In this document: positions 41,086-64,000 of the stretch, piece after piece
Layout of the letters: each line of letters begins with the position of its first letter
Numbering within the stretch: position 1 is the first letter of the stretch
Source: Polytrichum commune
Lineage: Eukaryota > Streptophyta > Polytrichopsida > Polytrichales > Polytrichaceae
Assembly: GCA_950295325.1 (NCBI GenBank)
Contig: OX485805.1
Span: 51,606,758-51,670,757, forward strand
Direction: 5' to 3'
Length of the DNA stretch: 64,000 nucleotides
Made by a program: the position numbers and the translations under genes
Notes under the pieces: generated by a model
Told to the model about the DNA's origin: nothing
Seen by the model: the letters and a program-made list of their open reading frames with translations, nothing else
Database searches by the model: none

Positions 41086-44000
41086 CTAAATGCCTCCATT
41101 GTCCTCTGACACCTCTAAGTGGAATAACGTCTCCACATTGGGATTAAACTTACGAGACTTTGGGCGGTGTATAGGTGTTGATGCAGTTGCTTGTGCAAGA
41201 GCAACACTCTCTACATATATGGGAAGCAAAAATGACCTAGGAGGGGATGATAGTTGCTCCATCATCTTGCCAACACTGCATTAAAATATACATAATGAGA
41301 GTTAATAATTTTGATGATGCACAAATTTACAAAAGTCATTAAATTCAAATAGATTGGGCAAACTCACGTATTCAAACGTGATTTCCTTGCTACTTTGCAA
41401 GGAGGTTCATCATCATGTTCCAATGAAGGTGGTTGTGATGATTGACCAAGTACAGGTTTCTGAGATGATAACTCACGAAGCGGTTGAAGTATGTTATTAA
41501 AGATAAGATCATCTGCCTCATAACCAGCAAGGTGGCGTCCACTCTTACGACATGCGTGGACAGAGGCACCTGAAAATAAATTCAAAAGACAAATAATCAG
41601 TATATGTTTTATAAGCATTACAAAGAATGATAGAAAATCTATTGAAACATCAAAGCAAACTTATTGAATGTTGATGGTAGTCATAAAGATTGCAAACACA
41701 CCTGTAAAAGCAATGACGTCAATGACTACCGCTCCAGGCTTACATAAAGCCTCGATAAACATCTGCATTAGGATAGGATGTTTTTCACGAGCACCTCGCC
41801 AAGGTATAGAACCATTCATTAGTTGATTTTTCTTAGTTGTGTAGTTAAAATAAACATCGTCTTTGCCAACACATACACCTTGTTTTTCGAACTCAATGTT
41901 TTTGTTAAATGATACTTTCACATCTGCATTCTTTTCACGACAATATAATAAGATTCAGAATTTGCGTAACTGCCACAAACAAACAAGGTACACGTATTAG
42001 TAAAAAATAATTAAAAATTGCATAGATTCAAACTACATTGACAATGTTGAGGAAAAAAGAATTATACTTACTGTGGCAGAAGCATCGGTACCAGAGCATA
42101 ATTTCATGTCATTCACTCTCCACCAATCTCTTAACAAAGTGAAGCCGTAAATAGCCGAATATATACGTACATCTTTACATTCCGGAATGAACAAAAGAAT
42201 GAACGCATCGTCGTGAAGGAACGAAAATGCGAACTCAAACATTGCCTCAATTTCTGAGGTAGTATGCTTATTCCATTCTGGAATGACTAAAGGAAGAGAA
42301 GAAATATGCGGGACAAAAAGACCTTCAGGCAAATCTGCGATCAACAAATTAAAACCTCAGTGCGGACATGCGTCGTTGGACACATATGTGGATCTCATAC
42401 TGTCAAACTGTTGCACACAACAATAACCAATTAATATTGTTTGTAATAAATATCAAATAAAAATATTTCAAGAATGATAAAATATAAAAATATAAATATT
42501 GGCAAAATGCTTATTTGTTTGACAAATTTGTTTGTCTTCAAAAATATTGTTTGAGATGCTCTAGTCACGACGTTAAAAACAGAAGTATTCTCTAACATAA
42601 CTTGAGCAGAGGTATAAGATAATGTTTTTTTGTGAATATTCCAGTTATTTGCATACAATTATCATATTGAGCAAGGTCCACATAATTATCAGATGCACAT
42701 GTTGTAGAAACCACATGTTCTTTGGTTCCACATGTTCATGATGCCACGTTCTCTTGAAAAGGTGTGATAACTTTTTTTGAACCACGTTTCCGTTTCCGAT
42801 CAAATTCTGAAACTACAGTAGCAACAACTTTCGAAGGAATTAGTTTTAAATGGGAAACATCATCACCAACAAAGTACATTTCTTCTTCTTCTTCCGCAGT
42901 ACAAAATTTAAGTGGACATTCCAAAACCAAGGGCATGATTGCAGAATTCTTAAAGACCATGTTTCCATATGAGATGCTTTGAAGATACAAAGATCACTCG
43001 ATTTGTCAATCCAAGCAGCCAAATATTGAAGCAAATTTTGTTCAAAAATTGCGCCCTTTGCCACCAACTCCCGTCGTAGATATCTACAATAAATTTCAAA
43101 AGGAAAATTAAAAATCATATGAACATATATAATTACAATAAAAATCAAAGAACTTGTATAACTAAAGAACATCAAGAATAAATCACTGCAATACATATAA
43201 TGACAACTCTAATTACATCATAATATTCAACCTGTAAAGAACGCGCTTAATGACTAAATCTCCTTCAAGCATTTTTATAAGTTGAGTAGATTTTACAAAT
43301 GATGGATTTCCTCTCATTATAGTCAAAAATATTTTTTCCCATAGCAAAAGTCTCCATTTTTCAATATAATCCGGAAGTACTAGCGTGCCAACATTGAATG
43401 CAATATTTCCTATCTCATCTTTCATTGCTTCAAACTCATTGTTAACGGCTGCTTCCACCTTCACAACACATGAACAGATAAACGCATAAACACATAAACA
43501 CATAAACACATAAACATATTAACATATTAACCTATAAAATCATGCATTTCAACAAAAATGATTATTTTTTATCAACGAAAAATGAAATACATGAGCCCAA
43601 AATGATGCCTTCGATAACCATGCATCTAGTTCAGAATCTTTGGTATCAGTTGAAGTCAAATGTAAAGAAATCCGAGACATAGGACTAGAATTTCACCATT
43701 TAAGCCATCTAGCTTTAAATTGGCCAGGCAAACGAGTAGTGGCTATTTTCTGTAGCTTCTCCAACGTAAGGTCTGGTTTAGGGTTGGATTTCCAATGCTT
43801 ATTAATCTGCATCCAGAAATATTCATAAAATAAAACCAAAATTTAAAAAATATATTACAAAGATTTTAGAAGTGTTGGCATGAAAACATACCTTCGCCAT
43901 GAAATCATCTACATTTGCGGGATCCGCAACTGCGAGCATCTTATTGAAATTTTTTTTTCTGAATGATCTGACAATTGAAGTTATAGCGTTGGCCATTTGC

Positions 44001-44995
44001 TCCCATTCTTCTTTCGCAAATTTTTTTTTATTGGATTTTTTTCTTTGTACAACCTAGAAGCCTCATCCGCAGCAGCCACAACCTCTCTCTGTACATAAGA
44101 AGCATAAACCAACAACAATTATAAATTGAATTTTTTTTCAATCAAACATGAAAATAAATGAAAATAAATACTTGTACCTTATAAATCAATGTAGCAAACA
44201 CATCGACCGTCAAAGGATACCACGTAGTCTTCGATTTTTTTTTCACACAATTTGCATAACTTTCAGAAGAGTTAAGCTCTTTAAATTCATCAAGCTTCAA
44301 AATCTTGATATTGCGTATACGATGAATCTTGTGAGGCAAGTTGGTTTTCACATGATTTAGCTCAGTGGTTCTGACATGCACACAACATATAAATCATAAA
44401 AAACAAGTTGAAAAAAAAAATCAAATTAGATTGCGAGTAAGGTGGTTTCTACTAACCGGTTCACATCATTCATAGCATCGAGGAACACCCCAACTGAGCC
44501 TTTTGGATCCAAAAAAATACAATCCACAGAATAGTACCAATGCTCTTCATCAGAGTTATGGCGTTCAATGTGGCGTAGCCATGCTGTCACCCGATGGTTA
44601 CCTTTCCAAACATAAAACATTTTGCCCTTAAATTTAAGTAAATATTTATCCTTATCCAATTCTTCCTCAAAACGATGATGTACACGTTGCCAATGTTGGT
44701 TCCAAGAGCTAATTGTTTCATATGTAACATCAAGACAAGAACCATCATTTTTGGCAATCGATACATACAAGACACGGTCTCCTTCCCTATAGCCATTGGA
44801 AAATTCAGTTTCCAATAATTGAACATCACCGAAAGTATAATTTACAAAATTTTGCACTTGTAAGATTCTAACAATTTTTTCATGTTTGGAAGGGAAAGGG
44901 GGATGATATGCTCTATTTCTCAAGTTCAAGATTTTACAATAATTACCGAACATTTTATATGAATCTATAGAATGTACTTCAAATGTATAAAACAA
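41086..44995 (-). pseudogene. ParB-like/DNA amino-methyltransferase-like gene, copy A (transposon-borne, near-intact)
   Basis: Multi-exon minus-strand gene homologous along its length to the gene at 51.2-55.0 kb. In order: an N-terminal domain with FYVWKGNHRVTAW (ParB-like GNHR at 44,602-44,591); helical middle exons; a Lys/Arg stretch; then a methyltransferase-like C-terminus. That part has a possible catalytic motif DLPEG (about 42,340), then SAM motif I (VIDVIAFTG joined by a clean intron to ASVHAC) and GRHLAGYEADD. Catalytic motif before motif I is the order of beta-class N4/N6 methylases. The last exon ends at a TAG at 41,086 after a strong GTGAGT donor. Breaks: TGA at 43,695-43,693 replacing a Trp, and a one-base loss in an A-run near 44,035. 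The N-terminus is undefined (no ATG). Confidence 0.65.
44830..44869 (-). repeat. hairpin-family arm inside an exon of methyltransferase copy A
   Basis: On the minus strand, 33 of 40 bases match the arm of the hairpin at 47.5 kb (landmarks CAAGTGCA, AATTTTGT, ACTTTCG). In copy B the same place codes for unrelated residues, so this part of copy A's exon seems to derive from the repeat. Confidence 0.6.
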
Positions 44996-45766
44996 AACCT
45001 AAAGATGTCAATATGTAACATATTGAACTTGGAAACTCTAGGATCGAGACCTATTTTGTTTGAAAATCTCTCAGTTGAGTTAAAAAATTGGTTGAAGTTC
45101 GAGACTTCATGTGAATAACCAATCATTTTAGAGGAATTCAGTACCTAGAACTACAAGATAAAAAAAACTAGAAGATGTCAAAATGACACCACATGTAACA
45201 TGTTGGACTTGGAAACACCAGGATTGCGACCGAATATGTCCCAAACTCTAGGAGTTGAGTTTAAGAAATAACAATGGACAACTTTGAATGTTCTTGCCAT
45301 GACTATTGTCATCACCAACCTCGAAATTCACATATCGAAAATCAAACTGATTTCACATAGATTCAAGCACATTAAACTACAACACTGTTTCAGGAAAAAA
45401 CAGAGGATATCTATCCATTCAAGAATTCCTTTGGCCCTAAAACCTCACAATTTCAGTCACCCTTTCACATAAGTTCCCTCAAGAAGCTATGGAGATAAAT
45501 TTTCCAGCAAGAAATGAATCATGAGTACATTTATTGATTTTTATTTGTTTGCATTTGAACTAGATACAACAACACCTATGCCCTTTGAGTTACCACTTAT
45601 TTTAGAGGAGTTTAGAGAATATTTTTAAAAACTACAATAAAGAAAACTTGTAAGATGTCAACATGTCACCATGGTTGGATCAGGATGTAGACCGGCTATG
45701 CCCAAGAACATCCCGAGCACTGGTTGGAGGGTTGATCACCTCTCCCTCCCCGGCACCAACAAAAAC

Positions 45767-46407: not shown

Positions 46408-46455
46408 AACCTGGCAGAAATCTGCACTTGCATATTACTGTCAGTTATACTTTCG
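46408..46455 (+). repeat. single hairpin-family arm
   Basis: CCTGGCAGAAATCTGCACTT followed by TGTCAGTTATACTTTCGG; no adjacent inverted partner. Confidence 0.6.
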
Positions 46456-47696: not shown

Positions 47697-47699
47697 TTA

Positions 47700-48350: not shown

Positions 48351-48357
48351 ACCATTT

Positions 48358-48465
48358 CAAAAACCTGGCAGAAATCTGCAAGTGCAGAATTTTGTCAGTT
48401 GTACTTTCGTTGCCGAAGGTACAACTGACAGAATTATGCACTTGCAAATTTCTGCCAGGTTTTTG
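48358..48465. repeat. inverted repeat (108 bp hairpin) of the same family
   Basis: Arms of about 52 bp (CAAAAACCTGGCAGAAATCT...) around the same TTGC loop, with the same core GTACTTTCG/CGAAGGTAC. It lacks the outer arm of the 47.5 kb hairpin. Confidence 0.93.
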
Positions 48466-48524
48466 GGTTTAGGGTTTAGGATGGTTACTGTATGCAAACA
48501 TAGATGAGATTTCGGTGACTTGTT

Positions 48525-49150
48525 GATGATGGAATTTGTGACAATTTCTATGTCGAGAAATGCAGCATCAAGAAGGTGGCCAAGAGAGGCTATGGTCGTT
48601 CAGATTAGACTGCATTAAGAGTCTGTGGCTTTATATTCAAATTTCTGGTCTTTTAGAATGAGACTTATGTTTCTGTAGATGATACATTTTGTGACAATCT
48701 CTATGCCCAAAGAATCAATTGGAGCATTCAAGGTAGTCATTACACATTGATGCATCCTCCACCTGAGTGCGTGCAAAGTAAGACTGGCGACAGTGAGATC
48801 CTCTTATGGTTTTGGGATGATGCGTGTAGTCGTTTGGGAACAAGATTTACGGTGTCTGTTGATGAAGCAATTTGTGACAAATTCTATGTCGAAATGCAGC
48901 ATCAAGAAGGTGGCAAAAGAGGCTATTGTCATTCACATTGGAATGCACAAAGAGTCTTTCATCTTTGCGGGGATGCACCTGGTCTTTTAGATGTTAATTT
49001 TTGTAGATGATGCATTTTGTGACAATCTCTACGCCCAGAAACCAAGGTAGTCATCATTACACATTGATGCATGCAGAGTAAGACTAGCTCCAATACGATC
49101 CTCTTATCGTTTGGGAATAACATTTTAGGCGTCCATTTGTGATGCAATTC
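48525..49150. repeat. tandem repeat, about 330 bp unit, about two copies
   Basis: CAATTTGTGACAA(A/T)TTCTATGTCG-type landmarks lie at 48,530 and 48,866, and ATTTTGTGACAATCTCTA(C/T)GCCC-type landmarks at 48,685 and 49,012. The repeat abuts the upstream side of the SMP-30-like frame. Confidence 0.75.
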
Positions 49151-49205
49151 CTCACAAATTTTCTGTGATAAATTTTCTACAGTTTCAAGTAGGCCGTCAA
49201 ACGCC

Positions 49206-49694
49206 ATGGACACCTCGAAGTCGGTCAAGACGTTCTACGAGGCACACGCAGTGGTAGGGAAGGGAGGAATCTGGGACCCAAAGACAGAGAACTACTACTA
49301 CCTCGACATCACGGGGATGACCCTCTTCAAGCTCCACATTCCGACTATGGAAAGGAAGGATTGGCATGCAGGCACACAGGTGGGCACCATGGCTCTAATT
49401 GAAGGCGGAGAAGGGCTTGTGCTGGCCATTGAGGATGGGTTTGCAATCTTTAGCTTCAAGGAAGAGAAGCTCCATGTGGTTGCAACACCCTATGGGGTTA
49501 ACACCGGACGGCGTATGAACGATGGAGTGTGTGACTCCAAGGGCAGGTTCTGGGCCAGACGACTCTTCAAGACCGATGAAAGTAAGTTGGGTGAGGTTTA
49601 CCGTCTCGAGAATGACGATAAGATTGCTACGAAGGTGATCGACAACATTTGCTGCACTAATGGTCTCTTGTGGAGCCCTGACAATAAACTTATG
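49206..49694 (+). pseudogene. SMP-30/gluconolactonase-like gene, N-terminal part only
   Basis: An ATG-started frame covering about the first 163 residues of an SMP-30/regucalcin-type six-bladed beta-propeller (full family length about 290-310). Visible family motifs are NYYYLDITG, RRMNDGVCDSKGRFWA and CTNGLLWSPDNKLM. The Asn of MND and the Asn of TNG, both metal/substrate ligands in the family, are present. The first metal-binding Glu of the usual GEGP-W segment is replaced: the text reads VGKGGIWDP. WAGT is changed to WARR. The frame runs into GTAAGT at 49,695, which could be a splice donor. No C-terminal half is seen before the transposon at 51 kb. Either a truncated pseudogene or a first exon cut off by insertions. 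Confidence 0.75.
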
Positions 49695-49897
49695 TAAGTC
49701 CCAAGCTTCACCTTTTTCCAGTAAGGGATCTGAACTTACTATCCCCAATAACTTCTCGAGCACTGATTGGAGGTGGGAGGGGGTGATTGGACCTCCATCC
49801 CTTAAGTTCGAGATGGCAGAAACATTACCCGCATTGATTGACAACATATAACCTATTGGACTTGGAAACATTAGGATCTCATCAAATGAATGAAAAA

Positions 49898-50305
49898 TTA
49901 GGGTTTGGGGGAGAAAACCTGGATTGGAGAGGTTTTGTCCGCTTCTCCATCATCCCCCTCTCTCTTGCTATCCTCCTTGGCATGATGCTTGCCATCCTCC
50001 TCTTCATCCTCCTCGCCCTCTCCTCCACTTTCTTCTTCTTCTTCTTCTTCTTGCTCCTCCTCCTCCTCCCTCAATTGGCTACCCTCATTGTCATCTTTGT
50101 CTTCATCTTCTTTCTCCTTGTCCTCTTTTATTTGGCCTTCCTCAACTACCTCCAATGTCACCTCATGTATGTTCCCGACTTGTTTCTCCTTGGCCACTCC
50201 GATTGGTCTCCGCATTGATCTGCAGCATGGCAACAACGGTGGTCGGGGAGAAGTGGCGGTGAGAGGTATTGTGGTGCTACCCCTCCCATTAGCCTTCTTT
50301 GCCAT
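49898..50305 (-). CDS. questionable low-complexity acidic ORF
   Basis: A 135-aa frame from ATG at 50,305, dominated by Glu/Asp/Lys (EEEEEQEEEEEEES in the middle), generated by CTT/CTC-rich DNA at about 50,030-50,075. No domain. It could be a disordered tail of element C's minus-strand gene or a by-product of the microsatellite. Confidence 0.2.
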   Translation of the reverse strand: MAKKANGRGSTTIPLTATSPRPPLLPCCRSMRRPIGVAKEKQVGNIHEVTLEVVEEGQIKEDKEKEDEDKDDNEGSQLREEEEEQEEEEEEESGGEGEEDEEEDGKHHAKEDSKREGDDGEADKTSPIQVFSPKP

Positions 50306-50540
50306 CGAGTGAGGCCGTATGGAATGAGAACCCGTTCCAAACCCTAAACTCAATAACCAATGAGATTCTACTTCCACTCTAGGCAATGACTAGGAAATTA
50401 ACATTCAATACATATTAGGTCAAAATATTACTTCTAGTGTGGGTTGGGACTCCACTTCTTCTTCAATGTCTTGGATATCAAGCCTCGTTTCACTTATAAT
50501 TTCCACATCCTCATGTACATAGATGTCAGGTTGTTCCGTA

Positions 50541-50759
50541 TCAATCCCATCTTTGAGGTCCGAGGTCCGTATCTTCAAATGTTAGAGTTCGTGTCGTCGC
50601 ACATATGCCATGTTTTGTAATTCTAGTCAAATTCTTCCCCATCCTCGACCGCTCTAATGTTTTCCGCGTTGAATACTTGGAAGATCCTTTCCGTTTGCGT
50701 TTCTTCAAGGGAGTTGAGAACTGTGAATGTGCGGACACATCTTCGTTGAGCATTTGCAC
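50541..50759 (-). pseudogene. small basic/acidic ORF of element C (decayed)
   Basis: An ATG frame of 72 aa with STPLKKRKRKGSS, followed by an acidic stretch that continues in another frame (DGIDTEQPDIYVHEDVE). Composition, orientation and position resemble the 86-aa ORF of element B (57,844-58,104, TPVRPKRRSRK then acidic). Sequence identity is weak. Confidence 0.3.
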
Positions 50760-50990
50760 AAATCAAATTGGAAATTAATTTGCAAAACAAATAGAAATTG
50801 AACATCTCATGTTTGATTGTTGTTTTGCTTCAAGAATGATTGTCCCTCTTCCACATCCATGTATATTTAATGTCATCATATAGCATAGCAACAACAACGA
50901 CAATAATGTGCCGTAACTATTAGAATCTTAGGGTTTCACGTTTTCATACGTCATAGCTTATTTTTGGCCGTCACACATTTTGAATTTGTG

Positions 50991-50998
50991 TATAAATA
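50991..50998 (+). promoter_or_regulatory. TATA box of the element C transposase gene
   Basis: TATAAATA immediately left of the element B target duplication. Removing element B would place it about 0.28 kb upstream of the transposase ATG at 63,020. Confidence 0.4.
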
Positions 50999-50999
50999 C

Positions 51000-51009
51000 A
51001 TTGTATGTG
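51000..51009. repeat. target-site duplication of element B, left
   Basis: ATTGTATGTG; the flanking match extends to 12 bp (CATTGTATGTGG). Confidence 0.85.
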
Positions 51010-51178
51010 GGGGAGTGCTATCTTATAAGCGGTGAGCAATGAGCAGTGAGGAAGATGAAAATTTTGGTAATAGGGCCACCAATATCCTATAACCGTGGAA
51101 TTGTGGCCTTAAAAATGATGATTTTAGGGTTTAGTAATAAGAGGGTTGAGAAGGATAAACAACATGAAGTCCAAAAAT

Positions 51179-54100
51179 TTATTCATCAGTAGTAGCACTA
51201 GACATGAAACTATCTTTTGCCTCATCATCTATATATATTCGAGCACCTTTGCATTGCGAATTGATTTTGGAACTATAGAAAGATTCTTCATTTGGATCCG
51301 AATCTTCAAGATTCAACATTGCAATTGCAACATTCTCGGCATATGATGGGAGACGCGGGCTACGGCTTGGACTTCGTAGGAATTGTCTATGTGCCCAAAA
51401 CGGGAGACATGTCCTCTTTCCAATCGTATTCCTGAAATCAAATCGATGAAACATGTAAATAATGTGAAAAATAAAAATGAACCAATGAATTGAATGAAAC
51501 GAATGAATTGAATAAAAATTTATTGTATTAAAATTTACTTACACTCAAATTCAAGCATCTCCTCATCCGAGAGGTCATCATCTTCTTTTGTGAGATCTTG
51601 TATATTCTCCTTAGATGACCCCTCTTTCAAAACGTTTTCCAAAAGCGGTTTCAATATGTGCTCAAACATGTCATTATCACCCTCAAATGCAAGAAGATGT
51701 CTACCACATGCGCGTGTTGCTAGGATAGAAGCTCCAGTGGAACATGTCAAATCAACAACGCGTCCATTCGATGGTGTAAGCAATTCAATAAGATCTTGAA
51801 AAAAAACGCGGCGATTTTTTATATGGCCCCCTCCAAGGTCTTCCCGATTTTTGAAGAAGCATGTTTTTTTCATCCACAAAATTGAAAAGCAAGTTTTTGC
51901 TTTTCAATCCAGTGCCCAAAAAAATGGAGTTTGGTTGTCTCGTGGATTTTGTGGTAGTAAAATCCCTTACCAAGACATGAGCCATAAATGCCGGAGTCTA
52001 CAAAAAAAAGTAAATTGTGTTAAAACTATATATAATGCAAATAACACCAAAATAATTAAATAGAAACAATTGTGATGTGTTATACTTACGGTGTAGGTTG
52101 GAGACTCCGGATCCTTGAACACCATGTACGAATTGAGGCAAATAAAAGGCCTAAGAACTTTCATGTTGCCGTTGTGTAAGGTTGAATTCAAAACCTTATT
52201 GGTTTGCATATCGATAGTAGAAAATACTATGAGGACGCCATCATCAGACAAGATGGATTTGCACAAGGACATTGTTACAACCATCCAGTTCTTGTCATAT
52301 TTATTCCAAAGAGGAATTTTAGCAGGTCTATTGGAGAGGTTGAAGTCAAGACCGTCGGGAAATTAGAGAAAAACCAAGTCAACGGCAAAGGGAGTCGGAC
52401 TTCCCATGACATGAAATTCGCGATTGTCATTGAACTGAAATACCACAACATATCACAATATAAAACACAAAATAAAACCCAAATGAAAATAAGAACATTA
52501 GAGAAAATACCAAAACAATAATACTTACGTTTTCAATAAATTCCCGCCCTTGGATCCACTCAGGGGGGCCTACATCCACCCCTTCAGACTTGTTCTTGAC
52601 AGCAGTAGATCGAGCAAATGAGAGCGTGAGAAATTTCTTCAGTATGAATAACTATTTTCTCAAAATATCCGTTGGCGCACGATGAATAGCGTCATAGGTG
52701 CTGAAGTAATGAAATTCCAATACATCGCACCCAGACTTTGAACTTTCGCCTCCAAGTGGATTCTTATCCAAATCATTGGAAAGAACAAGCAATTCTTCAT
52801 GTTGTGAAATTTCCGATTGACCTTGTATTTTGGTTTCAGGAACATGTTTCCTCTTACGACGTTTTGTCTCTTTTGGTTTTGGCTCTCTAAGTTTAAGCAA
52901 CACAATTTGTGCTTGCAAAATTGCAGTATCACGAGGATCCACATTTTTAGCATCATTTATTTGACGGATTGTCTTCTCACTTGACGGACATGCATCCTTA
53001 GGACAATCAAGATACCAACCACAATCTTCATAGTGTGGGAGCGACCAATCCAAACAAATCTCAATAGTGAACATGCATGAATCTTCTGCACCAGTATCAC
53101 GCCAATTTGGGAAAAAACGAGATTCCCCTATAACGCATTTATGTGGAATCAAAACATATCGAAAATACCTACACACAAAAATATTGTAAGTCAAATATTC
53201 TATGACAATTTGACAAATAAAATCAAAAAAATCAAAAAAATAATAAGATTAGGTTCTACCTGTATAATACACGTTTCATAGCAAGATCAATATTAGGTTG
53301 CTCATCCCTACCGTTGTGTTTTTTAACTTTTTCGCTTTGGAATTCACGATAGAATATTGAATTGAAAACCGCAAACTTCCAGGTTTGGATATACTCGGAG
53401 AGAGTAGGCACATCTGCAGGCAACTGAAGAGGATATGAAAGAATATTTTGAAGCTTTTCGATAGCATTTTTTTCCAACTGTGCCCAATATATAGACTTTG
53501 ATAACCAATCATCAAGTGCAGAATCAGAAAAGAGCAATTTCGGGAAATGCGATGCATCTTTGTCAAATTTATTGCCATTCCAAAGCTTGAGCCATCCAAC
53601 TTTGACTTCTGCATCCACATTACTGACAGCAACACGATGAAGTTTTTCTTGTAGCATTTCAAGCACCGAAAATGAAACCCAATGGTGCTTAACTTCTTCA
53701 AGGAAAGCAGAGGTAAGGTTGATGTCAGCAATCGCTAGTTGTTTCGTAAAACTAGAAGATAACATTGCACGTTTTTTGTTGATAGCTGCGGACATTGTTT
53801 TTGAAACTCCGTCTGATGTCCGTTCAAAAGGATGAGTTTCATTGTACTGGTTGAGAGCAATATCGCTAGCCTCAGCAAGTTTTTGCTGAAAAATCAAACA
53901 AAAGTCAATATTTATAAGTACATATAGATGTAATATAAAATGAAGATGAATAAACATAAGGCACATATTAGCAATGGTAGAAGAACTTACACTGTACATT
54001 TAATCCAAAAAAATTGGTCGTGTAAAAGAATATCAAGTATCGACGGACTTCTCCTCACATCGTTTATAACTCTTTGGATCCAGTTGCTTTCTAAAGGAGG

Positions 54101-54994
54101 TCAAAGGCATGGTGCCAATACTTTGCATCCGATATAAAGTATGCACCGAGTTGGTGGATACGTGAAAATTTTCGGTTGACCTAAAAAAACATTAAATTGA
54201 TTAGATTCATGATGATATAATTTGGAAAACAAAATATAAACTAGAAATAAGTGTAAAAAATAGGTAAGAACATTACTTGTTGATGTCATGCATAGCAGTC
54301 AACAAACTTGGAATGTCGTCAGGCTCGGGCGCAAAAATGATAGAATCCACAAAGACATGACGTTCATAATCTTCAGTATATACGCGGTCAATATAATCTC
54401 TCCAAGCAAAAAATCTGTGATTTCCATTCCATATGAAAAACATTTTGTTCTTGTATGACGTCAATGACAAATCTGTATCCAATTGAGATTCAAACAGGGC
54501 ATTGGCTTGAGCCCAATTTGGGCTCCAAGATGCACGAACCTCATTATCCACGAATTGAAAGTTTCCTTTAGAATCGGTGGCCGATATATAAAACACATGG
54601 TCACCATCACGATAACCATTGAAAAAATCAGCCTCCAATTTAGTAATGTCACCCTTCAAAGCAGGACGCACAATCGGCATAGGAACCATGCGACATAAGG
54701 GTACACGCAAGCGAGCATTAGGTCCAGCACGGATTGACAAAATTATGGAAGTGGAATTGACCTTTCGTTTGTTCGTAAGCTCCCACACTTTCTCTTGATA
54801 AGTTTTATTGTCACCATCATTATCTTCATCCGAGTCAAAATCATCGAGGGATTCATTTATTTTTTCTTTTTTTTATTATGAAGATTTGACGATATGTTCT
54901 GATGATGATGAACTTGTTGAGATGGACGATCTTGAGTTGAATGCATTGTGGAATCATCATCAGTAGAAATAGGAGTCGTTCTCTCCAAATCCAT
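51179..54994 (-). pseudogene. ParB-like/DNA amino-methyltransferase-like gene, copy B
   Basis: Multi-exon gene from a plausible ATG at 54,994 (MDLERTTPISTDDDS) to a TGA at 51,179. The N-terminal region has DGDHVFYIS and MFFIWNGNHRFFAW (ParB-like GNHR at 54,425-54,414). The middle exon (53,256-53,920) is helical. A further exon carries a KRRKRKH basic patch. The C-terminus has FPDG (possible catalytic loop, about 52,355), then RVVDLTCSTGAS (SAM motif I, about 51,760-51,727) and GRHLLAFEGD. The permuted order is that of beta-class N4/N6 methylases. A GTAAGT donor at 51,540 joins a last exon whose NTIGK and SYAENVAIA match copy A. Breaks: TGA at 54,035-54,033 (a Trp in copy A), TAA at 54,002-54,000, TAA at 52,365-52,363 in the catalytic loop, and a frame change in an A-run near 54,875. 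Confidence 0.7.
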
Positions 54995-55254
54995 TGATTG
55001 GTCCTAAAACAAATGAAATAAGTTTCATAAATATTTCAAAACCAGTAGCAACACATTAGCAATAACATTACAAAAACAACAACAATAACAACAGAATATT
55101 ACGAACACAAGGAAGAATGACAAAAATTATTCTAGACACTGCCATTTGCACCTTTAAATATTGTACGATTAGGATGGCCGCTCATCCCAAAACTACAAGG
55201 GCAGACCCTGTGCGTTAATGCACAAGGTCAGTGTGTCCAATTATAGATCTACCA

Positions 55255-55530
55255 AAGTTGGGCGCGAGGTTTGGGTCGAACGACCCAAACTGTCCACACG
55301 GTTTCGATCGAGCGACCCAAACCGCCTACAACCAGTTTGGGTCGAACGACCCAAACTTTCTGCGCGTGATTTGGGTTGCTCGACCCAAACTGTGAGCGTG
55401 GTTTGGGTCGTTTGATCCAAACTAGGCAGACAGTCTGGGTCGAGCGACGCAAACCATGCTCATAGTTTGGGTCGTTCAACCCGAACCATGCTCACAGTTT
55501 GGGTCGAACGACCCAAACTGTCCGCAATTT
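55255..55530. repeat. array of 18-22 bp palindromes, TTGGGTCG(A/T)(A/T)CGACCCAA
   Basis: At least seven full or degenerate copies of TTGGGTCGAACGACCCAA and variants (TCGTTTGATCC, TTGCTCGACCC), separated by unrelated 10-20 bp spacers. They lie in the upstream region of methyltransferase copy B. Two perfect copies recur at 60,919 and 60,949 inside the transposase gene. Confidence 0.9.
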
Positions 55531-55739
55531 ACGCCTGATTATGCGCAATTACCCAGTCATCACGAAAGTGCAAACAAACCTTGTACTGCACCTGTAGATG
55601 AGAGAGCTTGCAGCGACGAGCTCAAGTCCGACAGATGAGAGAAAAAAGACTGAATGCTTTGGGGGTGTGGCAATTTATACTACTCGTCCCTGCAGTCATA
55701 TTTAGCGTGGCTCTTCGTGGCCCCGCATAGCCGCTAGAA

Positions 55740-55905
55740 AGTTGTCAGCTTAGACCCTGTGCGTTAATGCACAGGGTCTACTAGCCCAACTTTGCGAAGC
55801 CTCTAGCTAGGCAAGTAGACCCTGTGCGTTAAACGCACAGGGTCTGCGCTGGCAACTTTGAGGGCACTGTGCGTTAGCGCATACACCCTGTGCGTTAAAG
55901 CACAG
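55740..55905. repeat. cluster of CTGTGCGTTAACGCACAG-type palindromes
   Basis: GACCCTGTGCGTTAATGCAC and variants occur about four times here, and once at 55,203. Each is a near-perfect palindrome around GTTAA(T/C). Spacers differ. Confidence 0.85.
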
Positions 55906-56339
55906 GGCTGAGACATGAATTTGATTTTTTTTTAAAGTCTGGAATTGGTAGATTTGCCAAAACTTGTAAAATCTGGAAAAAATGCTAATGGGGTCTAAAA
56001 AAACAAAAATATGCTATATTATCTAAATCTCCGTAGCTACAAATTCTTCTCATATTTTATTCTGGTTTGAAATCATTTTTTTTTTCTCATTCTTCTATCT
56101 ATTTCCTTGTTTTGGGCCACCTCGTAGATTTTGGGTTTCGGGACGACAAAAAAAATTATGTTATTTTGTGTCATTTTCTAGCTCCTATAACGTATTGCAT
56201 GAATACTTGAGTAGACATATTTCTCATTTCTTGCATTCTAACCCCGTTTTGAATAGTTTTTTTGCTCCTACGCTCTGAACATCGATTTAAATTCATACAA
56301 TAGATATTTGTTTTACTTTTAGGCTCTCCTAGTCGTTTT

Positions 56340-56720
56340 CTCTCCCAACTTTTGGCCTTTCTAAGTTGCTATTACAAACCCTATGCGTTAACGCACATGG
56401 TTTCTCCTCCCAACTTTTTGCCTCCTAAGTTGCTCTTACAAACCCTGTGCGTTAACGCACAGGGTTTCTCCTCCCAACTTTTGGCCTTCCTAAGTTGCTA
56501 TTACAAACCCTGTGCGTTAACGCACAGGGTTTTAGCTCCCAACTTTTGGCCTCCCTAAGTTGCTCTTATAAATCCTGTGCGTTAACGTACAGGGTTTTAC
56601 CTCCCAACTTCTCGCCTCCTAAGTTGCTTTTATAAACCCTGTACGTTCTCCTCCTGACTTCTAGCCTTCCTAAATTTCTGTTATATACCATATGCTGCTG
56701 TGCATTAACGTATAGGGTTT
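56340..56720. repeat. tandem repeat, 65 bp unit carrying the CTGTGCGTTAACGCACAG palindrome
   Basis: The GTTAAC centre recurs at 56,387, 56,451, 56,516 and 56,581 (periods 64-65 bp), with degenerate fifth and sixth units. Each unit includes CCCAACTTTTGGCC and AAGTTGCT between palindromes. Confidence 0.93.
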
Positions 56721-56762
56721 CTCCTCTCCAATTTATAACCTCTATAAATTGCTACTACATGA

Positions 56763-57735
56763 TGTCGCGCACCTCTCCATGAGGAGTGCCCGAAACACCA
56801 TGGGCACAAGGGGGACCCCGGAGTGACACCCGGGACTTGTGGCGCCGTTGGTGAGAGGGCCCAAGTGATCCTAGTGTGGGTGAGGGCCCCGGGCGTTGGG
56901 AACGCCTCCCACCCACGAAGACTAGGAGGCACAAGGGCAAGGCCATGAGCTATGCGTAGCTCATGGCGTGGTGATTCTAGAATGCTCAAGAACACCTCAA
57001 TCGGAGGTGTGAGCTAGGAGTTATGGCCATTTGAGTGGGGCGCTGTCCCGGGACAGCGCCCTGGTACAGCAGTGCCTGGGAGGGATTCCCGGGACTGCCA
57101 AGGTTCAAACAGGCATAACTTCCTCAAGACTTGCTCGAATGGAGCAAGTGAGGAGTCCATCGGCATCTACGTGAAGCGTAGATGAGGATGGAGTGGTTGG
57201 TTGTTATGATCAGACATCATACAAGGAAGTTATGATGGTCTGAAGCTGCTGGGGGGTTCTAGGCCCAGCAGCTAAAGGAAAATGTCCACTTGGCCCCAAC
57301 TCTTGGTAGGGAGACAAGAGGTTGGTTGACGGTGGGGTAGGGGCCCCGCGTGAAGTCCTAGAGGCTTATATGGGTGAGGTGGTGTGGCCTCACCCACCCG
57401 AGGCCGAACGGCAAGGCCTCCATGGGCTTTGGCCTATTGTGAGGCCATAGTTGCCTAGTATGCTTCGGGTTGTTGTAGTGTTGCTCCGGCAACGCGATGA
57501 TCAACATAGGATTGGACTTCCATGGATGGAAGTCCACATTGGGGAAATGGGTTACCGATTAAGGGGTGAGTCCCGAAAGCAAAGTAGGAGGGTTGGTTCC
57601 CTCCTATGAACTATTGGTCCGGGGTAAGAGGAGCTATCCATTAGCATGGCGGAATGCGAATGGTTAGCGCTCGTAACCTTTGCTAGAAACGAAAATTGGC
57701 AAGATGGTCAAGGAGGGCTAGCAAGGGTTGCGACA
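56763..57735. mobile_element. solo LTR, 973 bp, with 5 bp target duplication
   Basis: Begins TGTCGCGCACC and ends GGTTGCGACA, giving TGTCGC/GCGACA inverted ends of the TG...CA type. CATGA occurs directly on both sides (56,758-62 and 57,736-40). It is markedly GC-richer than its surroundings and has no coding domain. The arrangement is that left when a complete LTR retrotransposon recombines between its LTRs. Confidence 0.9.
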
Positions 57736-57843
57736 CATGACATGTGAATGAACGTACAAGGTTCTCCGTGCTAACTTACAACTTATGCACTATCAAATTA
57801 TGTGAACGTTGAACTGACTTATCTTTTTGTTTGTCGTCTTCTT

Positions 57844-58104
57844 TTAACTCGTCTTCAATTCGGACTCTGATATACGATCGTCTACATCTTCTTTGCTCTT
57901 TGCACCTTCATCATCCTCCATTGCATCAAAATCCAGTGTCTTCACAGTTTCTTCTACCGTACTCAACAAGTTTCTTTTCCCTTCCTTATTTGCATTCTTC
58001 TTTCCTACACTCAGTCTGAACCTCTTTTTCTCGGAAGTGAAATACAAAGTTTTTCTACTTCTTCTCTTCGGCCTCACGGGCGTTCTCTCTACATCGTCCA
58101 CCAT
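57844..58104 (-). CDS. small basic/acidic ORF of element B, unknown function
   Basis: 86 aa from ATG at 58,104 (MVDDVERTPVRPKRRSRKTL): a Lys/Arg-rich N-terminal half, then an acidic C-terminal half (DFDAMEDDEGAKSKEDVDD). Likely disordered and possibly nuclear. It is transcribed, if at all, divergently from the transposase, whose ATG is 523 bp away. It lies on the same strand as the methyltransferase-like gene, so it could also be a separate first exon of it. A similar ORF lies in element C. No known family recognised. Confidence 0.4.
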   Translation of the reverse strand: MVDDVERTPVRPKRRSRKTLYFTSEKKRFRLSVGKKNANKEGKRNLLSTVEETVKTLDFDAMEDDEGAKSKEDVDDRISESELKTS

Positions 58105-58626
58105 CGTTGGTGTCTATGATATGTTTTCTATCAAGTACTATCATTTATTCTTCCAATGTATCTATGTCACAAAATCCGGCGTATATTAGGATCGCATATT
58201 GTAATTAGCGTTCAATGAACGAGATATTTCGACGCGTTTGTCATTATATGTTTATTTTTGTTTTATCCGCCAAAATTTTCTGACATCTACTTTGTTCTAT
58301 TCATAATGATCAATAATTTATTTTTCCAACCAATTTTAATTCTTTCTACATCTACGTCAGTCCACACATATATATTTTAAATTTCTACCAATACTTTTAG
58401 TATTTGATGTCATTTTGTGTATATCCTGCTCGTAAATATTCTCTGACTATTATTGTGTTATGTCCACTTCTGTATTATTAGATGCTATGTATCACACGCT
58501 TTCATCTCCATTCATTATTGTATCACACGTTTTCATTTCTATTCATTTCCTCACACAACTCTATACAAAAACAACATTCACCCCATATTTTTGTGATGTG
58601 TTGTTCATATGTTCTTTTGATTTTCT

Positions 58627-61600
58627 ATGGTTACCATTAGAGCTCATGAATCTTTTGTTCCCTTCATCTTGCCACTCCAAGATGATGGTCATGTGAGTGT
58701 TTCAGAGGATTTACTTAGTTTGAGATTCAACCTTCAGATAGGAACCATGTATTTAGAGCATGAGATGTACTCTGCAGATGGAGAAGTGTATAAAACGATT
58801 TTGGTTCCAAAAAATAGAACTGATGTTGGTTTTATGTGGATCTTAGGACCTGGTTCATTTAAGGTGATAGGACTTTCTGAATCTCAGATGCAAACTTCAA
58901 CTGTCATTTTGACAAACGAATCCGGTACATCCACAGTTCAAATTTCCTCTATCGCACCTGTTAAGGTGAAACCCCTTGATGATAGTGTGTTTGTGCTATC
59001 AGATTCAAAAGATGACATTTGTGCATCTGTTGATCTTTCAAACACATCGTCATTTCCATTTAGAAGTGTTCATTCTACTCCTTCCCAAAATCCTATACAT
59101 GTAGCCAAATCCCCTTGCGGTCTTATGTACAAGAAGGTGGTTCCCCAAATCTCACATTCTCAACGTCCTCCACTACACCCTTCACCTTCATCTACAGGGT
59201 TGACTATGGTTGATGCCTTGAAGCTGACAAAGTCAAGAAAAAGATCAAAGTCCGATCTTGCATCCATTGATTTTGACAGTATAGATGTTCGTGAAGTCAA
59301 GTACTTACCATCTTCTTTTAATGGTGATGTTTTATTTTTCTTGCCTCCTGTGGCACTCAAAGCTCCAAGTACGTATGGTCGCTCAATGGACGGCATGGAC
59401 AAGATGTGCGATGGTCACCCTTGGTGCACCACCAAAACCACCAATATCCAAAATAACTTTGGACTGTCCTTCCGGCGCTTTACTTGTGTTGGTCATCTCC
59501 AATGTCATAATGACTACTGTGATTACATGAATCGTAATGGGGGCCTCCAAAACAACACTGAATGGGCCGGTTCAACTCCTATCCCATTTGTTGTGAGTGT
59601 TGTTCCCCCTACTAAGTCCACTGTCGAGTGTAAGGTATGTCGTTCCACACCTGTGTGCATTGCTTTGTGTAATGCTCGAATCATATACATCTATTGCACA
59701 TCCGTTGGAATGTCCAGGGCTTGCATTCATCTTGGTGTACATGATCACCCTGTGGCCAATGGCACATGCCGTGAATCATTGGACATGGCATACCAATGCA
59801 TTGTAAATGAAGTATTGAAAACACCCACAACAAAAAATTCAGCCATAGTTATGGCGGCGAGCAAACAATTCTTGGCCGATTACCTTCTCAAATCTCCCGC
59901 AAATGTCGAAGGCCATCACTTGGTTGGTTCATCCTTAGAGGTCGTCATGGACAAATTCAGCACTCTTGCGTCTCCAAATTGTCGTAACTTTGTATCTGGA
60001 TCAAAGCATTTTTGCGTAGTGAAATGGGAACTATGGATAGTATTATGGCGCTCAAAGACCATTCTGCTTTCAAATTCATCCATGGTAGTCGGTTCCCAGG
60101 GCAGTCAAAGGACAAAGTGTTTGTTTTTAAGATGTTTGTAGACCTTCCAGGTAGTGGTGTGGAGCTTGTGAAGAGGATGCAAGTCGGTGGGGATATGGAG
60201 AATTCATGGATTATGTTTGACCATGTCAAACGTTTGAAGGACTGGACGACCATGGCTTGCCATGTGTACGACAGTCGATACTGTAAAGTGTTGACTATTG
60301 CGTGTTGTGACATGCAATCTGAAGATGGTGCAGCACAAATTCTCTTTTGGGAAAATTTGAATGCTGTCATGGCAAAAAATGGTGTACCAAACATAAACTT
60401 CAAAGGGTTTATGGCTGATAGTGCTCAAGCTAATTGGAATGCAGTGAGGGCGATTTACGGGGATGGTGATCCAAGTCTACCTATGGTTGCACGTGAGCGT
60501 ACATATCTTTTCCATTGGTCCGCAAGCTTGGATAAGGTGACCCAAAAGTATATCAAACCATCCTTGCAATTTCAACACAAACAAATATGCAAGGATTACA
60601 AAGACACGAAAACAATGGACGACGCTGAGACCAAGTACCATGTGATTCATTCTTGGTGGTTGTCATCTGGAGCTGCCTCCGAAGAAGGCATCATTGGCCT
60701 TTCAGAGTGGTTGGGATTTTGGCACTTTCGTTACAAACAATGGGATGGCCATATGCTACTTGTAAGTACATATCAAACTTCATTACTCAATGTAATATAT
60801 CTTATGTTTTTCTTATCTTTGTCTTTCTGTGTTGTTCATAGGATATGACAATAGAAGAGCGTGCGGGAATGCCAACATGCAATCTTGCAAAGACTGTACA
60901 CAACAAACAACAAATAGTTTGGGTCGTTCGACCCAAACCTTGTATGCAGTTTGGGTCGAACGACCCAAACCTAGATATATAATCTATCTTATGTTTGTCT
61001 TATCCTTGTATTTGTGTATTGTTCATAGGATATGACAATAGAAGAGCGTACGGAAATGCCAACATGCAACCTTGCAGAGACTGTACACAACAAATGGCTC
61101 CAACAGTCCGACAACAAGATGACTTGTTTATATAAAGCTATAGTGGACAACATGATCCGTGCCTTCATGCAAATTGCAAATTACCGGGCATGGTTGAAAG
61201 GGGGGTCTGATGGTAAAGGTCCTGATTCGGCCTCCTTGAAATTCAAAGCAGCTGCCAGGTGTGGAGATCCAAAAATGTTGGCTAATGCCATGAAGTCTTA
61301 CCCAGGGGCAGAAGACGTCAACACTAGAGATTGTGCATTGGAAGGGTCAGAACTCTTTGGTTCCACCAAACGTAAACTCAACCTACCACCGGGTGCTGAT
61401 TGTGACTCTCATCGACCCGACTAACTAAACTATTCCATTCCTCGTCCCAACACCCGAGCAACTCGTCAACGCATAGAGGAATCGTTGAGTTCTGCAATTC
61501 ATGGTGTGGCTCATACTACATCTGTGTTAGAGACTGATTGTCTTGCTTTCAACTGGCACATTGCAAGATTACCATCCAACTAAGCCAAACGATGTTGGGC

Positions 61601-62397
61601 ACTGCAGGCCATTACATGGACTATGTGCAATGCTAAAATCGGGACTGGAAAACATGGCACACCTGCCCCAGCATACAAAGGGCTTAGGAAGGAATTTCGA
61701 TCTCCCAACAATGTGGAGTATGAATTTTGGTTTTGCCCTGACGACATCAAGCGTTGTGTGAGTGGCAGTAAGAAGAAATATGTGTTGGACTGGCCTATAG
61801 TACCCAACACGTGGCCGGTGAAGATAGGTACCAATCTATTGAGAGAGGATGTTTTGGCACTTGAAGATGCTGGATTTCAACTATAGCAGAGGGAGGCATT
61901 GTCCCCTCGTCGTAGGCTTTCAACAATTGCAACTCTCCCCATCTCTCGCTCGCATTTTTCTATGCTACCAAACCCGGATGCCCACCCTACATTCAGGTTT
62001 GGGAAGACAGTGCGTCGTAATCCAACAACACCGCTACCGGATCACAAAAACAAATGGGAGAGTGTCGGACTCATGGAGGGTTACTATGTGGTTGGGGTCA
62101 CTGCCATTCCATATTCCGGGCTTTGGAATGATAATCAACATTGTCTCCAAGCAAGATATCACATACCATGTCACAATTGGCGACATCCCGCATTGCACAT
62201 GCCCGGATTTCACGAAAATGTCCTCTCATGCATTGGGAAATAAAGGAAAATGGATGTATTGTAAACATCTTTATTATGTGTTTAGATTTTTGTGCAAGGT
62301 GGATTACGAGAGTGACAAGTTCATTCATGCACCTACATATACCTATAACGAGGTCATGCGACTACTTGAACTTGCTGGTATTGTAGAGTGTGAGTAG
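58627..62397 (+). pseudogene. MULE-type transposase with zinc region and SWIM finger (element B)
   Basis: The plus-strand frame begins at ATG 58,627 (MVTIRAHESF). An N-terminal beta-rich domain (RFNLQIGTMY, SFKVIGLSE) is followed by KSRKRSKSDL. A Cys/His region (GHLQCHNDYCDYMNRNG, then ACIHLGVHDHPV) recalls WRKY-GCM1/FLYWCH zinc domains. The core at about 60,280-60,720 has LTIACCDMQSED (first Asp), FMADSAQANWNAVR (second Asp) and RTYLFHWSASLDK, with an EE/E-rich helix after it. A SWIM zinc finger, CTCPDF...YCKHLYYVF, lies at 62,194-62,268. An 80 bp intron (GTAAGT at 60,762) has a duplicated acceptor. Breaks: frameshift near 60,005, stops at 61,422, 61,581 and 61,884, and a frameshift near 62,115. 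Confidence 0.85.
60780..61093. repeat. duplicated intron end/exon start flanking two palindromes
   Basis: About 120 bp containing TTGTTCATAGGATATGACAA and the next exon start occurs at 60,780-60,905 and again at about 60,966-61,093. Between them lie two copies of TTGGGTCGWWCGACCCAA. The first exon copy runs into a stop; the second continues the transposase frame. Confidence 0.85.
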
Positions 62398-62639
62398 TAT
62401 TGCAAATGGTCTATTAAGTACCATATATTTGAATGTCAAAAAATGACATGTTTTGATTTGGATTGTTATAATAAAAATTAGCAATGGACTGGAAGTATTT
62501 CCAATGATCCACGGTAATACGATTCCTTCTTGCTTCATTTGAACTCTTTACATTTGAAAATCTTCAATTCATGTAGTACTATATTTAGTTCATGTACCCT
62601 AAACCCGTGCACCTTTACTATTTTTGAATTCATTATTCA

Positions 62640-62739
62640 TATATTACCGCTCACTGCTCATGTCGTATTGCTCACCGCTCATGTCTTACTGCTCACCGCT
62701 CACTGCTCATTGCTCATCGCTTATAAGATAGCTTCCCTC
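62640..62739 (-). repeat. right terminal and subterminal repeats of element B
   Basis: Read inward: GCTATCTTATAAGCGATGAG, then repeated (G)GTGAGCAATG/ATGAGCGGTGAGCA words, about ten GAGC or GAGT units in 95 bp. Such subterminal arrays are typical transposase-binding regions; this role is inferred. Confidence 0.85.
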
Positions 62740-62749
62740 ATTGTATGTG
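62740..62749. repeat. target-site duplication of element B, right
   Basis: ATTGTATGTG, identical to the left copy. Confidence 0.85.
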
Positions 62750-63019
62750 GTGGCATTCTTATTTAAGGTACATAACACCCTTGCATTATTTCAAACCCTA
62801 CTTGAGCTGTCATTGCAATATTTTAAAGTTTTTAAATATACTTGCCACGTGAATTCTAATAATGGAATCATTACTACTATTCAAATTGTGTTGTCAATAT
62901 ACAAAGGTTGCAGATATGTATTGTTATTGTTGTTTGTGTCCATACTATTTAATGTCTATGTCATGCATGTTTTCCATTCTTCATTTTTATGAGTCTGCAT
63001 TGAATTTATTTATCTTCCG

Positions 63020-63710
63020 ATGGCATCTCTTCGAGCGGGAGACTGCTCTATTTCTTTCACTCTTCCTTTGGGTACAGATGGTTTTGTAGTGGTCCAGGAG
63101 AATTTGCTTAGTCTAAAGTTCAACTTTCGTCTTGGTACCATGTATGTGGAACAAGAATTATTCCAAAAGATTGGTGAGTTGTGCGAAACAGTTTTGATGC
63201 AAAAATCAAGAGTGGATAGTGGTTATTTTTTGTCATTGGGCGCGGGCTCGTACAAAGTCATAGGATTGTCTGAATTGGAGATGGATGCATCCATAGTGTT
63301 GTTGACAAATAAATCCATCACGGCCACACCGCAAATTCATTCTCTTTGCAAGGTCAAATTGGAGGTAGATGATGTGGTGGTCCTTAGTGATTCAGATGAA
63401 GATAGCATCCAAGTGGTGGACATTGCAGGGACTTCATCTTATCCATTTCAATCTCCACGTTCTTTTACTTCTACATCTTCTGTACAACCTCTACATGGCA
63501 ATGAACCCTCCCCTTACAAGCCACTGAACTTGAGTATTTTTTAACAGCACACACGCTCCAAAAAACCTCACGTTTATCCTACGTCATCCATATATTAGAA
63601 GCTCTCAAAATCACTAAGTATCGTAGAAGATCAAAATCTGATCTCACAAATATTAACTTTGATAACATTGTTATAGAGGATGTGAAGTATTTGCCATCTT
63701 CTTTTAATGG
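63020..63710 (+). pseudogene. N-terminal part of a second MULE-type transposase (element C)
   Basis: From ATG 63,020 (MASLRAGDCSISFTLPLGTD), homologous to the first about 230 residues of the element B transposase. Shared segments are LLSLKFNFRLGTMYVEQE, SYKVIGLSELEM and, after a stop at 63,544 and a frame change, TKYRRRSKSDL and VKYLPSSFNG. The frame ends where a CACTA-type terminus begins. The zinc, DDE and SWIM parts are not in the window. Upstream of it, beyond element B, lies its probable promoter (TATAAATA at 50,991). Confidence 0.8.
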
Positions 63711-64000
63711 CACTACTAGAAAATCATGACCAAATCAACAAAAAATCAACAGATCTTTGTCGATCCGGGCACTGCAATGACCGATTTCACTAATTTTTGA
63801 ATTTTTGTAAAAATCAACAGTTTACTGCCTACATTTTGTTGATTAGAATAGTACAATGACCAAATCAACAAAATTTTAGTAAATGTGAAATCTTTTTTGA
63901 ATCTTTTTTGGAATATTCTAGGATCTATTGGAATATTGTAAAATCTTTTTAATTTTTTGCAATTTATGGACTTGTAAGTGTATGGGTATGGAAATAATTA
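63711..64000. mobile_element. terminus of a CACTA-type element, continuing past the window
   Basis: CACTACTAGAAAATCATGAC starts exactly where homology to the element B transposase breaks (the shared ...TCTTTTAATGG). Subterminal ATCAACA motifs repeat several times, as in CACTA subterminal regions. The other end and target duplication lie outside the window. Confidence 0.65.

Follow-up and report, generated by a model that had tools for sequence, protein, structure and literature searches.

The window analysed here is a stretch of 64,000 nucleotides from the moss Polytrichum commune (assembly GCA_950295325.1, contig OX485805.1). It contains a copy of a transposon with two divergent genes: a transposase and a second gene, called the partner in what follows, whose product joins a ParB-like domain to a methyltransferase-like domain. 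Palindromes of 20-26 bp, usually arrayed, lie between these genes and also in an intron; they are absent from the description given in an earlier, sequence-only reading of this DNA. The copy belongs to the A type, one of several types denoted by letters, and consists of the following parts (window coordinates; the strand of the transposase is taken as plus).

51000..51009, left copy of the target site duplication, ATTGTATGTG
51010..62739, plus strand, whole transposon copy of A type, delimited by terminal repeats and a 10-bp duplication, with 40 homologous left ends scored across the genome
51010..51051 (inner limit approximate), plus strand, left terminal repeat with TGAGC sub-repeats
51182..51430, minus strand, partner exon 7, C terminus (tblastn with copy A exons)
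51544..51997, minus strand, partner exon 6, methyltransferase motif X/I region with VVDLTCSTGAS, frameshifted in the window copy
52090..52434, minus strand, partner exon 5, methyltransferase motif IV region
52526..53167, minus strand, partner exon 4 (tblastn with copy A exons)
53259..53888, minus strand, partner exon 3 (tblastn with copy A exons)
53997..54179, minus strand, partner exon 2 (tblastn with copy A exons)
54276..54994, minus strand, partner exon 1, ParB/sulfiredoxin-like domain with GNHR motif (tblastn with exons of the intact copy A; fold matches)
55206..55907, scattered units of palindrome 2, CCCTGTGCGTTAACGCACAGGG type (at 55206, 55755, 55820 and 55886)
55269..55523, array of palindrome 1, GTTTGGGTCGNNCGACCCAAAC, period 32
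56337..56647, array of palindrome 2, period 65
58627..60761, plus strand, transposase exon 1, frameshift near 60003
60917..60970, palindrome 1 again, as two units in the intron of the transposase gene
61029..62394, plus strand, transposase exon 2 with a sub-threshold SWIM-type zinc finger, frameshifts and stops in the window copy
62637..62739 (tandem part 62637-62721), plus strand, right terminal repeat with GCTCA sub-repeats
62740..62749, right copy of the target site duplication, ATTGTATGTG

A two-gene mobile unit in a land plant

The window copy starts with GGGGAGTGCTATCTTATAAGCG at 51010 and finishes with an imperfect inverted counterpart that closes with GCTTATAAGATAGCTTCCCTC at 62739. 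Its terminal inverted repeats are short and imperfect (GGGGAGTGCTATC / GAGGGAAGCTATC) and are accompanied by the TGAGC sub-repeats, and ATTGTATGTG (10 bp) stands on both sides. The copy is broken, with frameshifts and stops in both genes relative to the intact copy A, whose seven partner exons and two transposase exons are all without stops. Partner exon 1 of the window copy is frameshifted at about 54842-54860, and its exon 5 reads DLVFL*FPDG, with a stop, where copies A and B have QFPDG.

The genome searched for further copies comprises 408 Mb in all, with seven contigs (C1-C7) of 42 to 78 Mb. The exon matches for partner and transposase are the best ~150 of 838-1989 candidates per protein search, and the counts that depend on them are samples. 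For the left end, 40 of 360 candidates were scored (44 match rows, from which 4 short fragments of the same places were dropped), using a 201-bp query that extends into the partner gene and covers its final ~29 bp; for the right end, whose query has no such overlap, 40 of 409 candidates were scored. Among the matches listed, a methyltransferase exon lies about 600 bp inside 39 of the 40 left ends, with a ParB exon at 35 and a transposase at 30. The corresponding numbers for the right ends are 27, 21 and 15, with none of these at 11; that 13 right ends have no listed methyltransferase exon is at least partly due to the matches being the best ~150. Of the methyltransferase exons, 150 rows were listed and 148 were used after removal of 2 fragments; 91 of these 148 are accompanied by a transposase in divergent order, compared with 0.7 on average and 4 at most when 200 random placements were made. 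Close ParB exons number 135 among the matches listed; 126 have the methyltransferase exon in place and 93 a divergent transposase. The ParB-like plus methyltransferase-like gene and the transposase therefore form one mobile unit, present in multiple copies in a land plant. This agrees with the sequence-only reading, which had proposed a two-gene element and asked whether its ends might lack the methyltransferase gene, or the gene lie mostly outside such ends. Among the matches listed neither is seen, the gene missing at one of 40 left ends and 13 of 40 right ends.

The inverted ends and target duplication noted earlier recur in the other copies. All five copies for which both ends were available are flanked by shared strings of 9-13 bp, which we read in each case as a duplication of 9-10 bp once the end bases are assigned. 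Mutator-like elements (MULEs) have target site duplications of 8-11 bp according to the available part of PMC6446971, and all five copies fall within that range. The description of the element as Mutator-like with a MULE-type transposase nevertheless holds only in part. In its favor are the duplication size, the terminal repeats and matches of the transposase to the SWIM zinc finger PF04434 at 15.1 and 13 bits, below the cut-off of 19.6; against it, the MULE transposase domain PF10551 has no match in transposase exons 1 and 2 of copy A at E<=1. Because that match is lacking, the label stays provisional, though the duplication and ends fit. A profile comparison of the transposase with MULE frames from the same genome gave a probability of 0.1, both alignments being shallow and one of the three MULE rows (L051) being the longest frame (319 amino acids) and not the 275-amino-acid frame that matches PF10551. 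A profile search for PF10551 itself found 142 places. Between A and C, D or M1, the ratio of nonsynonymous to synonymous divergence (dN/dS) of the transposase is 0.11-0.12.

Palindromes and partner types

Under a strict test (arms of 10, at most one mismatch; 10 dinucleotide shuffles per region), 13 of 18 element regions contain at least three similar palindromes, and the largest cluster in the shuffles is 1. Additional regions, taken without shuffles, have 4 units (H2), 11 units (R) and only 2 units (D2). Counted by type, clusters are present in 10 of 14: A, C, E, F, H, J, M, N, Q and R. When the window is divided into 13 tiles, just two of them, those with such elements, show clusters of three or more. 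Exact counts in the genome are 9231 for A palindrome 1, 205 forward and 253 reverse for that of N, and 70 for that of R; reversed controls gave 0.

In most of the sampled types, the palindrome follows the type of the partner rather than that of the transposase. A count of 12 cores from nine types in 21 elements, with the R, D and G palindromes left out, places the cores almost only on their own type; the exceptions are A palindrome 1, with 80 hits in Q and one in G, and the short cores (8-10 bases) of M, I and J, with 1-3 hits elsewhere. In 6/6 types with a further copy, the copies have their palindrome in common (A/B/W, M1/M4, H/H2, N/N2, D/D2, and J with a second element in the window), copy K being the exception within the D type. 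The transposases of A and R are 89% identical, with a synonymous divergence (dS) of 0.18 over 507 codons, whereas their ParB exons are 42% identical and their palindromes differ. Between A and M1, the transposase has a dS of 0.43 over 788 codons of the C-terminal parts and is 77% identical in the N-terminal half (dS 0.47), whereas the partners are 33% identical with synonymous sites saturated over 565 codons. That the partner differs far more than the transposase is as expected if the partner was replaced. M1 and M4 are sibling copies, with a transposase dS of 0.04; a supposed discordance between their transposases and partners was rejected, since different transposase parts had been compared and this value is obtained when the same 240 codons are used.

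Loci chosen by palindrome or by transposase bear on the same association. A cluster of N palindromes chosen without a listed partner has an N-type partner (1/1, ParB exon 93%). For R we had set a prediction beforehand, that its palindrome would be found upstream of transposase copies with the 794-amino-acid frame, and it was borne out in 4/4 further copies. In a count made after this, with 50 of 70 sites listed, R palindromes occur within 10 kb upstream of 11 of the 56 transposases without a listed A-type partner and of none of the 94 with one; within the part covered by the list the counts are 11/45 and 0/83 (Fisher p about 4e-6). R-type ParB exons were present at all five loci fetched from ten new ones, 78-94% identical to R and at most 51.5% identical to the next type shown. 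Our best reading of these sequence comparisons is that the partner and its palindromes form a putative exchangeable cassette for self-recognition.

The element described above is inserted in the intergenic region of the second element, which is of J type (window 40530-51009 and 62740-63726 onward) and has its left end near 40530. Its recognizable parts are these.

41393..44998, minus strand, partner gene of the J-type element, exons within this span (tblastn, frames)
about 44456-44830, minus strand, its ParB exon, 88% identical to J type over 125 residues
45774..48423, its palindromes, of the J kind (GAATTCTGCANNTGCAGAATTC type), and two occurrences of another kind, GTACTTTCGTTGCCGAAAGTAC
62993..63726, plus strand, start of its transposase in two frames, with 86% identity in 183 residues compared with J

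The Q type (locus L028 with flanks L030 and L031, C1:606500-633900) has a gene with DUF7869 (E 7e-38) divergent from a putative ParB/methyltransferase-like gene. By eye, the latter contains DGQHS and a motif-I-like NVFGGSKP and is read as ParB-methyltransferase-like; Pfam and PHROGs gave no match for it. Thirty units of A palindrome 1 lie between the divergent genes, and 36 exact GTTTGGGTCGNNCGACCCAAAC sites are found in 27.4 kb. Q is another kind of transposon, of a second superfamily, with the same layout as A. Either A borrowed the sites of Q, or the reverse occurred, or one protein reads both.

Two further types have features of their own. The Lf type (L025) has a ParB exon 70-73% identical to those of N (L026, L029), yet its 8-kb region is without a palindrome cluster, and no transposase was found in the part of that locus that was examined. 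In the C type (L009, L010), the intergenic region contains a long CA-rich, microsatellite-like stretch adjoining the partner gene, in addition to two kinds of palindrome.

The partner protein

The alignment of 14 exon 1 sequences (A1) has 28 invariant columns, and the GxxR-type motif, here GNHR, is invariant in 14/14. The ParB exons of K and M1, which have stops, and of M4, which is split by a piece boundary, were left out, and L042 was dropped for having no open frame with GNHR. The predicted model of exon 1 has a predicted local distance difference test score (pLDDT) of 85.6. Among its top structure matches, entries for free serine kinase are interspersed with those for ParB, Noc, KorB, PadC and sulfiredoxin; Caulobacter ParB 7bm8 ranks first (Z 8.4, root-mean-square deviation 2.0 over 94 aligned residues). 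Pfam detected no ParB domain in exon 1 of the window copy, and PHROGs gave nothing below E 0.15 for three ParB exons. From the model, exon 1 is predicted to have the fold of the ParB/sulfiredoxin superfamily, so the ParB-like motif proposed in the sequence-only reading is sustained at the domain level. Between types the ParB exon appears constrained, with a dN/dS of 0.07 for Lf versus N at a dS near saturation.

The C-terminal part resembles an amino-methyltransferase with motif IV placed before motif I. The methylase profile PF01555 scores above its cut-off of 26.7 bits in both M-type copies (M4 35.4, M1 32.5), and PHROGs reports methyltransferase families for the M types (best E 3e-5). In the A type, exon 6 reaches only 13.5 bits against PF01555 and exon 5 gives no match; a 98-residue stretch of the same exon 6 has 36-38% identity to M. 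In the whole genome the profile finds five places, namely the two of M type, which are the only ones on chromosomes, and three on small contigs. Strong PF01555 methylase matches lie on the small contigs C10 and C12, where they are perhaps bacterial contamination. A predicted model of the methyltransferase part, from a 10-row alignment, is unreliable (mean pLDDT 36.5).

The catalytic motif of beta-class amino-methyltransferases is (D/N/S)PP(Y/F/W). At the equivalent position the A type has QFPD and the R type DYPD, E has DIPE and M4 has DIPD; DLPE is common to C, D and the window's J-type element. The tetrapeptide is thus xxP(D/E) in the seven partner types read, with DIPY (M1) and QFPN (L004, A type) as single-copy exceptions. 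Motif I, which binds S-adenosylmethionine (SAM), is near-intact in M4 (DLFVGTGAS) and altered in A (DLTCSTGAS) and in D. Because the acidic residue is common to types whose synonymous sites are saturated, it looks like a retained change and not like decay. The amino-methyltransferase-like motifs proposed earlier are therefore borne out at the domain level, by PF01555 in the M-type copies, whereas the proposal that the element methylates DNA is not: DPPY occurs in none of the seven types, and with xxP(D/E) in its place ordinary methylation is unlikely.

Proposed self-recognition, its alternatives and known systems

The usual match between arrays and partner type suggests that a protein made by the element can recognize the element's own DNA. 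In our interpretation the element is a cut-and-paste transposon with two genes, the second of which codes for a self-recognition protein, and we put the probability of this interpretation at roughly 0.58. The partner would bind its own palindromes as a dimer and would accumulate on the element, possibly as a ParB-like clamp. Once there, it may counter host silencing, control the two divergent promoters, or both, and would thereby affect chiefly its own family. Since an acidic residue stands in place of the catalytic aromatic one across types, the methyltransferase domain would be kept as a fold for binding DNA or SAM and not as a normal methylating enzyme. The cassette could work like VANC anti-silencing or like ParB-parS. 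Self-marking or anti-silencing, as suggested in the sequence-only reading, is still a live option, although marking by methylation of its own DNA does not fit the altered catalytic motif.

Several observations weigh against self-recognition by the partner. The main weakness is that the palindromes adjoin the partner gene, so that linkage of gene and array alone would make both travel together. A locus chosen by A palindrome 1 contained the unrelated Q type instead of an A partner; on C1, only 5 of 21 representative places of this palindrome lie within 8 kb of a listed A-type feature; and 16 of the 50 R sites listed (of 70) are not upstream of a listed transposase. Some types are weak, since D has 2 units and I (4) and G (2) have theirs only under a looser test, and the strict test found no cluster in the Lf type or in copy K, a degraded D-type copy. 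On the protein side, the ParB match is modest: the Foldseek E-values for the exon 1 model are weak (best 0.059), entries for free serine kinase come close in score (Z 8.0), and Z under 8 may reflect a common arrangement only. Within types, dN/dS is 0.3-1.2 on few changes.

The linkage also underlies an alternative in which the palindromes are neutral minisatellites, or sources of small-RNA hairpins, that hitch-hike with the adjoining partner gene. The tandem arrays with their repeated spacers would suit this, as would the scarcity of two-arm compensatory changes: the arrays contain 13, compared with about 8 expected for independent arms, and 311 one-sided changes, a further point against self-recognition. 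However, clusters of the same size class occur in 10/14 types and in none of the shuffles made, the sequence differs between types while dyad symmetry is kept, and clusters of three or more are confined to the two of 13 window tiles that hold such elements; we regard this explanation as improbable. Compensatory change had itself been considered as proof of selection for symmetry and was rejected, there being no sign of it within arrays. Somewhat better placed, though still unlikely, is a role of the partner as a transposition cofactor that assembles the transposition complex by binding the internal palindromes. A comparable role is ascribed to second proteins of other plant transposons, and a cofactor would agree with the methyltransferase exon at 39 of 40 scored left ends (among the matches listed), with the palindromes inside the transposase intron and with the same layout in Q. 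Against it, the arrays are internal and far from the ends, and TGAGC-type end repeats are found in copies A, B and W, in C and D and in the window's J-type element despite their different palindromes, so that the end sequence seems to follow the transposase. The exact end motif was not found in E, and the R, N and G sequences did not reach the element ends.

Least probable of these alternatives is an active N4-cytosine or N6-adenine methyltransferase that acts on the palindromes or the element and marks it for transposition or against silencing. Palindromic sites would suit such an enzyme, PF01555 exceeds its cut-off in the M-type copies, and the SAM motif of M4 is near-intact. Epigenetic modification of their own element is also suggested for algal proteins in the available part of PMC12477816. 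However, the DPPY equivalent ends in an acidic residue across types and in an aromatic one only in copy M1, motif I is altered in A and D, and on chromosomes PF01555 matches only the two M-type places of the five in all.

Genes that join ParB and methyltransferase domains in transposons are already known from algae. Sola1-1_Ec32 of Ectocarpus has an accessory gene for a ParB-like plus DNA methyltransferase protein opposite its transposase (Dinatale et al. 2025, PMC12477816), and the accessible text cites similar transposon proteins of green and red algae (cited works Iyer 2011, Petroll 2025). As described there, it resembles the moss element in that a single protein combines a ParB-like domain with an N4C/N6A methyltransferase domain and that, within a large DNA transposon, the gene for this protein and the transposase gene lie on opposite strands; unlike it, Sola1-1_Ec32 has a Sola1 transposase and belongs to a brown alga, the comparison being one of descriptions and not of sequences. 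The accessible account names no palindrome arrays, partner exchange or altered catalytic motif. In titles and abstract openings of the best 10-25 papers per search of the open literature (preprints and subscription papers being outside the scope), we found no report of palindrome arrays tied to a ParB-methyltransferase transposon gene, nor of partner exchange or the altered catalytic motif.

The nearest experimentally known logic is that of VANC in the VANDAL elements of Arabidopsis. According to the parts available, VANDAL motif arrays lie in noncoding regions and introns and diverge with the protein (Hosaka et al. 2017, PMC5735166), and VANC anti-silencing proteins are also treated by Sasaki et al. 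2023 (PMC10398659). The likeness, by arrangement and from these descriptions, consists in a second gene and in family-specific short motifs in tandem arrays, with protein and motif diverging together. In the moss, family-specific arrays likewise diverge with the second gene, with A/Q, Lf and K as exceptions. In contrast, the VANC21 motif is the 9-base YAGTATTAY in one orientation and not a palindrome of 20-26 bp, and the available VANDAL account names no ParB or methyltransferase domain.

At the molecular level, the closest parallel is ParB-parS, parS sites being palindromic. ParB-parS and Noc systems share with the moss case the ParB/sulfiredoxin-like fold with a GxxR-type motif, and palindromic sites; they are bacterial, whereas here a eukaryotic transposon carries arrays of many sites. 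Polyvalent proteins of phages and plasmids belong to bacterial mobile elements, and the terms ParB-like and methylase both occur in the available part of PMC5512222. Retrotransposons with captured methyltransferases (PMC5890265) are likewise transposable elements that carry such a gene; unlike the moss partner, these are, in the portion available, C5 cytosine enzymes in dinoflagellates and charophytes.

A bolder version of the self-recognition reading, which we offer tentatively and hold to be possible though doubtful, is a eukaryotic ParB-parS system. A ParB-type clamp with a dead methyltransferase would load on the palindromes of its family, spread and shield the element from silencing, and the cassette of gene and array would be swapped between backbones and copied by unrelated superfamilies. 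In that case elements would compete and borrow through codes for self and non-self, as the one palindrome shared by A and Q would illustrate. If the less specific self-recognition reading is true, plant transposons would have a second, independently built sequence-specific self-recognition system besides VANC, assembled from bacterial-type parts, with a likely recognition site that can be read from the sequence alone. With many partner types that have palindromes of their own, this single genome provides a ready set of candidate protein-site pairs, which bear on the evolution of DNA specificity, on escape from silencing and on the exchange or theft of recognition cassettes.

Two minor observations concern the window copy and the assembly. 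At 56763-57735 the window copy carries a 973-bp TG...CA insert (TGTCGC...GCGACA), read by eye, which has CATGA on either side and corresponds to a gap in the comparison with copy A; it is probably a solo long terminal repeat. The assembly has TTTAGGG telomere repeats and a plastid contig with rbcL, as in a land plant, and the neighbor of rbcL on that contig is presumably accD.

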